A stretch of DNA of 64,000 nt from Tubulanus polymorphus. Taxonomy: Eukaryota > Nemertea > Palaeonemertea > Tubulaniformes > Tubulanidae. Position 1 is the first letter of the stretch. Each line of letters starts with the position of its first letter. Of the stretch, positions 30,301 through 35,782 are shown piece after piece. The stretch lies in the NCBI RefSeq assembly GCF_964204645.1, contig NC_134035.1, positions 13,745,951 through 13,809,950 of the forward strand, in the 5' to 3' direction. Position numbers and translations under genes: made by a program. Below the pieces are notes generated by a model that ran no database searches, had not been told where the DNA came from, and saw nothing but the letters and a program-made list of their open reading frames with translations.

Positions 30301-33300
30301 AGTTTCTAAACCGATTCGTGTTAAAACTGTTAAAGCATCGTCAGACATTTCAACATCTTCTTCTTCACATCTTATAAACAGATAACGATTCAATTTAATT
30401 CACACAATCCGTCGTTCGGTACAGATGAGTTTTCACTATTTGTAGGATTTGTTTTCGCCTCACCTGATTTTTAAGATTTGTTTGATGTCTTTTTCGTCGT
30501 AAGGTGAAGTAGTTATAATGAGTAGACGATCGAGTAAATCAATCGGAACTCCGTGAGGACTCTGATAGTTCGTACCACGGATTCTAAAATACGTAACAAT
30601 CACAATGAAAATAATTACCGATTCTCCGCGGAATCGGATTCATACGAGAATCGACGTGTACCTGGTGATTCCTCTGTTGGTTGCCATGACGAGAATCGGA
30701 GCCATGTCACTCTCTAACGCTCGATTTAAAAACGAGAAACATTCGATGTCTAACATGTGAACCTCATCAATAAACAACACCTTCAAACATACAATATACA
30801 GAACTAGAGTGAGGAGAGGTCAATGAGAGGTCAGTGAGAGGTCAGTGAGAGGGGGGCAGTGAGAGGACAGTGAGAGGGAGGGGAGTGAGAGGTCAATGAG
30901 GGGGGGGGAGTGAGAGGTCAGTGAGAGGGAGGGAGTGAGAGGTCAATGAGAGGGGGGAGTGAGAGGTCAATGAGAGGGAGGGGAGTGAGAGGACAGTGAG
31001 AGGGAGGGAGTGAGAGGTCAATGAGAGGGGGGGAGTGAGAGGTCAATGAGAGGGAGGGGAGTGAGAGGTCAGTGAGAGGGAGGGGAGTGAGAGGTCAATG
31101 AGAGGGGGGAGTGAGAGGTCAGTGAGAGGGAGGGGAGTGAGAGGTCAATGAGAGGGAGGGGAGTGAGAGGTCAATGAGAGGTCAATGAAAGGGAGGGAGT
31201 GAGATGGGGTCAGTGAGAGGTCAATGAGAGGGGGTCAGTGAGAGGTCAATGAAAGGGAGGGAGTGAGATGGGGTCAGTGAGAGGTCAATGAAAGGGAGGG
31301 GGTGAGATGGGGTCAGTGAGAGGTCAATGAGAGGGGGTCAGTGAGAGGTCAATGAGAGGGAGGGGAGTGAGAGGAGAGAGGGAGGGGAGTGAGAGGGATA
31401 GAGGGGGAGTGAGAGAGGGTCAGTAAGAGACAGTCAATGAAAGGGAAGGAGAGGAGTGAGATGATACTACTTACCCCCGGTACTATTTCTGCTTTGCCCT
31501 CTTCGCGCCACTCGGCTACTTTTGAGTTGATTTGTTCACGAACTTCACTTTTTATCTCTCCCGTGTCGCCTAGAAACAAAACAATAAATGAGAATAGAAT
31601 TCAGTTCACGATGGGTGAGGTCAGAGGTTCCGCGGGGATTGGTGAAACACTGACCTGAGAATAAAGCCAGGAATCCTTGTGTTCTGCTGTTAATGACATC
31701 GATCTCGTGTAAACTGACTGTGTGGACGACTTCTTTACGTTTCTGTAATTCACCTTCAGGACACTGAACAAACCTCGTCTACAATCATAATATCACATGT
31801 CGAACAATTATATCAGCATCAGGTTCTACAATCCTGGACTCAGTTCCACAATTCAGGACTCGGTTCCACAGTTCTGGACCCAGTTCCACTGTTCTAAACT
31901 AACAGTCCACTAAAAATCCATTTATTCGTTTCCAGTAAAACTTTAAACTGATCTATTTTTGATACAATAGAGTTTGAACGGCAGAGAGTAGTTTTACCTG
32001 AGGTCCCATAGCGTCGTAATCTCGAGCTCTTGTGAAAGATCGTCCTAATTTAGTGATTTTTCCCGTGGCTTTATCGATAGTTATAATATCACTATAACAA
32101 CAAAACATTTTACAACAATTAAATATTAATTCAAACAGATTTCACCAGCGATTCAGTAAACATACACGATAACCATGACAACTATGACAACGTACCCGGC
32201 TTGAACTTTTTCTTTCGTCAGAGATTCGATCATTTTCGTTCCTAAATCGTAAATTGTTTCCATTTCTGTCGTTTTTAGAGTCAATTTACCAATTTTCGCC
32301 CCCTGTTTAAATATAATTTGTTCCAGTGAATATTTGAGTGAGACAGTGGCATTGGAAGAGCAGCGACAATCATTTACTGAATGACTTAGAATGACTTAAA
32401 ATTAAGTGAATTCGCCGCTGCAATATTTAGAACCTGTCCAAAATCTGTATTTGGCCGCAGCAATCAAAAATTGCTTCCAACGCGCCTGTGAGAGTTAATG
32501 ATGAAAGCGATTGAATCTTTGTAACTTACCGTTCCAGTTGCTGGACGATCAATTTGAATTTCTACAACTTCTCCTTCTATTATCTCAGTCTCTTCTCTAC
32601 GAAAACAGGAAATAAATATATCAGTTTAAAGGGAGGGAGAGAATGGAGAGGAGAGAATGGAGAGGAAAGAATGGAGGGGAGAAGGGAGGGAGAGGGAGAA
32701 GAGAGAATGTAGAGAGGGGGAAAGGAGGGGGAGAAATGAGAAACTTTGACAGGGAAATGTAGAATGACTCACTTGATTCTGACACCGATTGATTTTCTGA
32801 ATGATTGAGTCAATGCTTCTGTTTTAGACATTTCCAATGAGAATATTTCGCTACCAGCAATACTAGTAAATGGTGTATCGGTTCCTAGAGCCTGAGCCAT
32901 TCCTGAAATAATACAATACATATATCACTACCAGCAATACTAGTAAACAGTGTATCGGTTCCTAGAGCCTGAGCCATTCCTGAAATAATACAATACATAT
33001 ATCACTACCAGCAATACTAGTAAACAGTGTATCGGTTCCTAGAGCCTGAGCCATTCCTGAAATAATACAATACATATATCACTACCAGCAATACTAGTAA
33101 ACAGTGTATCGGTTCCTAGAGCCTGAGCCATTCCTGAAATAATACAATACATATATCACTACCAGCAATACTAGTAAACAGTGTATCGGTTCCTAGAGCC
33201 TGAGCCATTCCTGAAATAATACAATACATATATCACTACCAGCAATACTAGTAAATGGTGTATCGGTTCCTAGAGCCTGAGCCATTCCTGAAATAATACA

Positions 33301-35782: not shown

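Follow-up and report, generated by a model that had tools for sequence, protein, structure and literature searches.

Tubulanus polymorphus is a palaeonemertean ribbon worm (Nemertea), for which an assembly of 267.8 Mb in 77 contigs is available. The stretch of DNA analysed in the present study, hereafter referred to as the window, comprises 64,000 nucleotides (C11:13745951-13809950) and contains a RUVBL2 gene, the features of which are compiled in Table 1. The encoded protein of 469 amino acids was found to be identical to the NCBI entry ‘ruvB-like 2 [Tubulanus polymorphus]’ (100% identity over 100% of the length), which is possibly a pure prediction, and to match the ruvB-like 2 chain 7aho_D at 877 bits. 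A search of the genome with the RUVBL2 protein (E up to 1) yielded 40 matches, 33 of them at this place on contig C11 and seven on contig C3. The latter showed 28-57% identity and are taken as RUVBL1, and a second RUVBL2 was not found among the 40 matches. RUVBL2 is essential in other eukaryotes. That the locus might be a silent pseudogene, as was considered in a first-pass annotation made from the bare sequence, was rejected on the grounds of the intact frame and of the search for a second copy, both of which point in the other direction.

Table 1: Features of the RUVBL2 locus of Tubulanus polymorphus, with positions counted from the first letter of the window.
Feature	Position	Strand	Description
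RUVBL2 gene	28174..35782	minus	15 coding exons, GT-AG borders, intact 469-aa frame (exon model)
Exon 4	34659..34731	minus	donor TGG|GTAAGC, first decoy acceptor 216 nt further on
Array 1	32837..34453	minus	21 x 77-bp unit, intron 4 end (TATTATTTCAG) plus exon 5 start
Exon 5 (130 nt)	32773..32902	minus	acceptor 21 to donor CAA|GTGAGT
Third minisatellite, intron 10	30814..31415	minus-strand gene	periods of 11, 22 and 76 bp
Exon 13 (130 nt)	30241..30370	minus	3' end formed by the authentic array 2 copy
Array 2	28604..30274	minus	22 x 43-nt core, exon 13 end plus donor AAG|GTAACT
Exon 14	28293..28413	minus	exon model

Two introns of the gene stand out by their length, intron 4 with 1756 nt and intron 13 with 1827 nt, compared to 78-694 nt in the twelve introns without splice-site arrays. 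If the extra array copies are subtracted, they shrink to 216 nt and 199 nt, respectively.

Array 1 lies at the transition from intron 4 to exon 5. TRF located it at 32843-34453 with a period of 77, 20.9 copies, 97% matches and 0% indels, and when the minus strand was cut at TATTATTTCAG, 21 units were obtained with all 20 spacings being exactly 77 and no indels, which confirms the 77-bp unit in 21 copies that had been described in the first-pass annotation. A regular expression for TATTATTTCAG that tolerated two mismatches gave an additional look-alike match 20 nt upstream of unit 1, which is not a unit. Copies 1-20 represent decoys in intron 4; the authentic border is that of copy 21 (32913-32837), the last part of which differs from the other units since there the sequence continues as exon 5. 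The units so obtained corroborated that a flank with CTGAC (...ATCTGAC) precedes TATTATTTCAG in the most upstream copy only and that the exon is continued in the 21st only, a distribution that would be expected of any in-place tandem duplication. The unit itself is composed of TATTATTTCAG, an initial stretch of exon 5, a short relic and a part of the intron. The relic, GGTAGTGATATATG, is similar to GGTAGCGAAATATT of the exon, and a similarity also exists between ATGTATTG and ATGTATCTG of the intron; hence the unit was read as the intron end fused, at a short homology, to the initial ~58-60 nt of the exon, the repeated segment comprising ~17-20 nt of intron 4 and exon 5 up to ~nt 58-60. Chance was rejected as an origin of these repeats. 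In a DNA query of the genome with a tool that skips very common words, the queried stretch of array 1 matched one locus.

Variation among copies 1-20 is confined to 7 of 77 columns, resulting in eight distinct units with a mean pairwise identity of 97.8%. One variable dinucleotide reads TG in 12 copies, CA in six and CG in two, so that of the sporadic Pro-to-Leu changes noticed earlier the variation as such is present, but is to be traced to a single CpG-like dinucleotide. Assuming an ancestral CCG at columns 42-43, 19 of the 26 changed cells are of the CpG type and seven are other changes, three of which amount to one A-to-G change common to copies 10, 12 and 13. The observed/expected ratio of CpG is 0.51 in the RUVBL2 gene versus 0.81 in the window, and the low value in the gene would agree with a methylation of its CpGs in the germline. 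Adjacent copies showed no extra likeness, the observed value being reached in 2468 of 5000 permutations. As neighbours are no closer to each other than shuffled copies, homogenisation by unequal exchange, which had been put forward for array 1, gains no support from neighbour similarity, and its derivation from the latter was rejected.

Array 2 in intron 13, which had escaped the first-pass annotation together with the precedent in amphioxus, mirrors array 1, with donors instead of acceptors being repeated and the real copy standing first instead of last. The authentic end of exon 13 is represented by copy 1 (30274-30232), after which 21 decoys follow. The cores, each consisting of the exon 13 end and AAG|GTAACTTCC, lie 70-83 bp apart and are separated by variable pyrimidine-rich spacers; 16 of 22 match the first core (itself counted), and the other six differ at one or two bases. 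TRF additionally reported a period of 459 bp with 3.6 copies, which points to a duplication of multi-unit blocks. A DNA query with exon 13 and the first core retrieved 22 matches, every one at the RUVBL2 locus. Copies of introner-like mobile elements are dispersed over many loci. Such an element was rejected as a source, since the queries with array 1 and array 2 matched one locus each.

Splice sites were scored with a matrix built from the 12 other introns of RUVBL2, the lowest in-sample score serving as threshold (6.1 for acceptors, 6.4 for donors). In a leave-one-out procedure real acceptors ranged from -2.4 to 11.6 and real donors from 5.1 to 11.9; owing to the wide range of the former, the acceptor counts given below depend on the threshold, and a laxer cut-off passes more. 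Acceptors 2-21 of array 1 score 9.5 with the exception of acceptor 11 (8.7), acceptor 1 scores 7.0, and in 18 of 20 decoys the last 20 intron bases are identical to those of the real acceptor. Between 34659 and 32700 two donors, both of them real, and 23 acceptors, 21 of them in array 1, exceeded the threshold, and the exon 5 donor is the only such donor downstream of the start of array 1. Correspondingly, 22 donors and two acceptors passed between 30380 and 28400, where the acceptor of exon 14 is the only one downstream of array 2. Judged by these scores, one kind of site is multiplied in each array without a strong partner being added.

From acceptor 1 to the exon 5 donor the exon would measure 1670 nt in place of the 130 nt from acceptor 21, in accordance with the 1540 extra bases calculated previously. 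Reading through from the decoy acceptors to the exon 5 donor encounters a stop 59-191 nt in (20/20), which upholds the earlier statement that of the 21 acceptors of RUVBL2 exon 5 only the last is compatible with the protein, and reading through the decoy donors leads to a stop after 436 residues (21/21). The frame of 469 amino acids, being identical to the NCBI protein, fits the use of the 21st acceptor, and the NCBI protein agrees with normal splicing of the gene.

The first-pass annotation had seen in this a breach of the rule that the first AG after a branch point is favoured. Branch-like motifs (GTGAT at -23 and TTTAC at -42, both motif matches only) precede acceptors 2, 11 and 21 and, since they fall into columns that are invariant among copies 1-20, are present before acceptors 2-21. 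According to the excerpted text of PMC9225289, 3' splice sites separated by more than 12-20 nt typically have different branch points and polypyrimidine tracts. With a spacing of 77 nt and a candidate branch point of its own for each of these acceptors, the first-AG rule need not apply to array 1, and a conflict with scanning was rejected. A choice at the second step of splicing, which is described for close tandem acceptors not more than about 9 nt apart (PMC9225289, in part), was likewise discarded in view of the 77-nt spacing.

The surroundings of the gene are rich in tandem repeats. These make up 18.9% of 84 kb (the window with its two flanks of 10 kb) compared to 0.9% and 3.1% in two samples of 100 kb from contigs C1 and C5. 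Along C11, samples of 5 kb were repeat-rich at the contig end (31%), at 13.89 Mb (30%) and at 13.60 Mb (22%), and repeat-poor at 13.0 Mb (6%), at 9.0 Mb (3%) and at the other end (4%); the last 0.4 Mb of the contig is therefore rich in tandem repeats relative to the rest, as far as these few samples (six of 5 kb, two of 100 kb) reflect density. Zero occurrences of TTAGGG or CCCTAA were counted in the last 5 kb of C11, so that the location is described as near a contig end and not as subtelomeric. In the third minisatellite of the gene, in intron 10, no exon border was seen by eye. A crude filter was applied to 36 of the 38 window arrays with a period of at least 18, the two splice-site arrays of RUVBL2 being set aside, and among the 22 open-frame candidates on 13 arrays no further mirage (see below) was recognised by eye. 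Nor was, in a control, a ladder of repeated exon pieces seen by eye in 53 chaperonin (PF00118) matches in the genome at an E limit of 0.001, which misses short pieces, as most array 1 decoys have E above 0.001.

Several other features of the window were recorded alongside. A series of minisatellite units recurs at 43455-51566 and 56134-64000, ~12.6-12.9 kb apart, which suggests a large tandem duplication. At 2058-2194 a minisatellite with a 42-bp period lies inside a G6PD_C / 6-phosphogluconolactonase open frame on the minus strand and codes for a stretch rich in glycine, alanine and threonine. A rhodopsin-family GPCR open frame is situated at 8732-9835, also on the minus strand, and a 270-bp run of GCA repeats with about 95% matching at 60272-60541.

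Judged by the architecture of the sequence, array 1 is in all likelihood a minisatellite of the ‘mirage’ type, and array 2 likewise, with the real sites probably being picked by pairing with the nearest partner across the exon. An initial duplication would have taken place at a short homology (exon ...AAATAT, intron ATGTAT...) in a minisatellite-prone region, and the copy number might then have been raised by exchange or slippage. If splicing pairs the partners nearest across the exon, the one competitive donor facing the 21 acceptors of array 1, that of exon 5, would choose acceptor 21 and with it the shortest exon; in array 2, the one acceptor facing 22 equal donors, that of exon 13, would choose donor 1, again with the shortest exon. 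Decoy use would be expected to be rare, and decoy transcripts, because of their stops, to be cleared by nonsense-mediated decay.

It seems rather doubtful that leaky decoys act as an expression dial, by which a steady decoy-spliced share of transcripts would be destroyed and the copy number of the arrays would set RUVBL2 output. This idea gains from the fact that all 41 decoys lead to a stop upon read-through, that their scores are like or near those of the real sites, and that intron-definition pairing would prefer decoys whose partners are 216 and 199 nt away; moreover, such signals could act as cryptic sites according to PMC3087553, as far as excerpted. However, amphioxus mirages were reported in the excerpts of the same study and of PMC3902484 to leave normal splicing undisturbed. 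If the dial were true, the length of a minisatellite situated close to a contig end in repeat-rich surroundings would set the dose of a conserved ATPase. An assembly artefact, with a real copy number of one or few, had been named at the outset as a way in which array 1 could prove illusory, and we regard it as very improbable: the near identity of the array 1 units would favour it, but private variants stand in order between the copies at an exact period, the assembly has 77 contigs, long reads could span an array of this length, and two different arrays occur in one gene. The notion of the unit as an in-frame mini-exon of 48 nt (acceptor to GCTG|GTAGTG), which as a multiple of three matched to the frame would add 16 residues after the Walker A region (encoded in exon 4), can practically be dismissed, as its internal donor, at -1.22 in copies 1-20 and at 0.59 in copy 21, stays below the weakest trained donor (6.4 in-sample and 5.1 left-one-out), the next intron would have a length of 29 nt, to which multiples of 77 could be added, and the insertion would presumably lie in a conserved ATPase core.

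Under the favoured reading, a mirage-type origin with pairing across the exon, the nearest partner is the real site in both arrays, and the nearest partner across the intron is a decoy in both. In array 1 acceptor 21 gives an exon of 130 nt and the decoys exons of 207-1670 nt. Intron definition, which is favoured by the shortness of the twelve other introns, would select decoy acceptor 1, leaving an intron of 216 nt, and among the donors the last decoy, leaving one of 199 nt. Both pairing tendencies are present in human data (PMC9225289). According to its excerpted text, exclusive use of the upstream donor of an identical pair was observed in five exon-defined minigenes. Behaviour as exon-defined is described there for 3' sites if the intron upstream of the exon is long and the downstream one short, and for 5' sites in the opposite case. 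In long-long exon-definition events the preference for upstream 3' sites is weakened, a reversal not being stated in that text. With flanking introns of 1756 nt upstream and 176 nt downstream, exon 5 would fall into the 3'-site class, and exon 13 with 93 nt and 1827 nt into the 5'-site class, an assignment made by intron lengths as such and not by the study's own length cut-off; both exons would fit these classes because the arrays themselves lengthened the introns. The arrays represent an internally controlled natural test of exon versus intron definition within one gene, array 1 setting 21 acceptors against one competitive donor and array 2 setting 22 equally scored donors against one acceptor. 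Pairing across the exon predicts an intact protein for both, and pairing across the intron predicts stops for both.

In the literature searched, to which subscription papers mostly did not belong, neither a report on nemertean minisatellites nor a paper on tandem repeats with multiple splice acceptor sites was found. A minisatellite with multiple splice donors is said to have been described by Turri et al. in 1995 from an interferon-induced transcript (gene 6-16/IFI6), reportedly with 12-bp units and several donors in use; it would resemble array 2 in its repeated donors, whereas in array 1 acceptors are repeated. Human internal tandem repeats at exon-intron boundaries, which are minisatellite-like, are known to alter gene structure (PMC2812944, as excerpted); they are said there to give rise to new introns in recent duplicates, whereas in RUVBL2 an old intron of a conserved gene was lengthened. 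Intron gain by tandem genomic duplication (PMC4974935, and the Rogers model cited in PMC3087553, both as excerpted) shares with the RUVBL2 arrays the duplication of a segment with splice signals, but the RUVBL2 model in agreement with the protein involves no intron gain.

The closest correspondence is with the mirages of amphioxus, minisatellite-like tandem duplications of exon-intron borders, concerning either border, which the excerpted text of PMC3087553 describes from Adh3 and globin genes and by which regular splicing is said there to be unaffected. The excerpt of PMC3902484 adds a mirage in troponin C (TnC) and likens PGBD5 tandem repeats to mirages. In both RUVBL2 arrays the tandem unit spans the exon-intron border, the authentic border stands at one edge of the array and the coding frame is intact; on these structural features they were assigned to the mirages. 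Length instability between haplotypes is a further trait of mirages, the RUVBL2 copy numbers being those of one assembly. The amphioxus mirages include those of the globins BflGb6 and BflGb9. The RUVBL2 arrays belong to another phylum, the Nemertea, so that mirages seem not to be limited to lancelets and to be able to originate at places of high minisatellite density. Although arrays of this kind are already known from lancelets, two traits are distinctive here: the copy number of 21 and 22 is higher than in the globin cases, with six and three units in two haplotypes of BflGb6, and, unlike in the amphioxus mirages compared from these excerpts, both border types are united in one gene.
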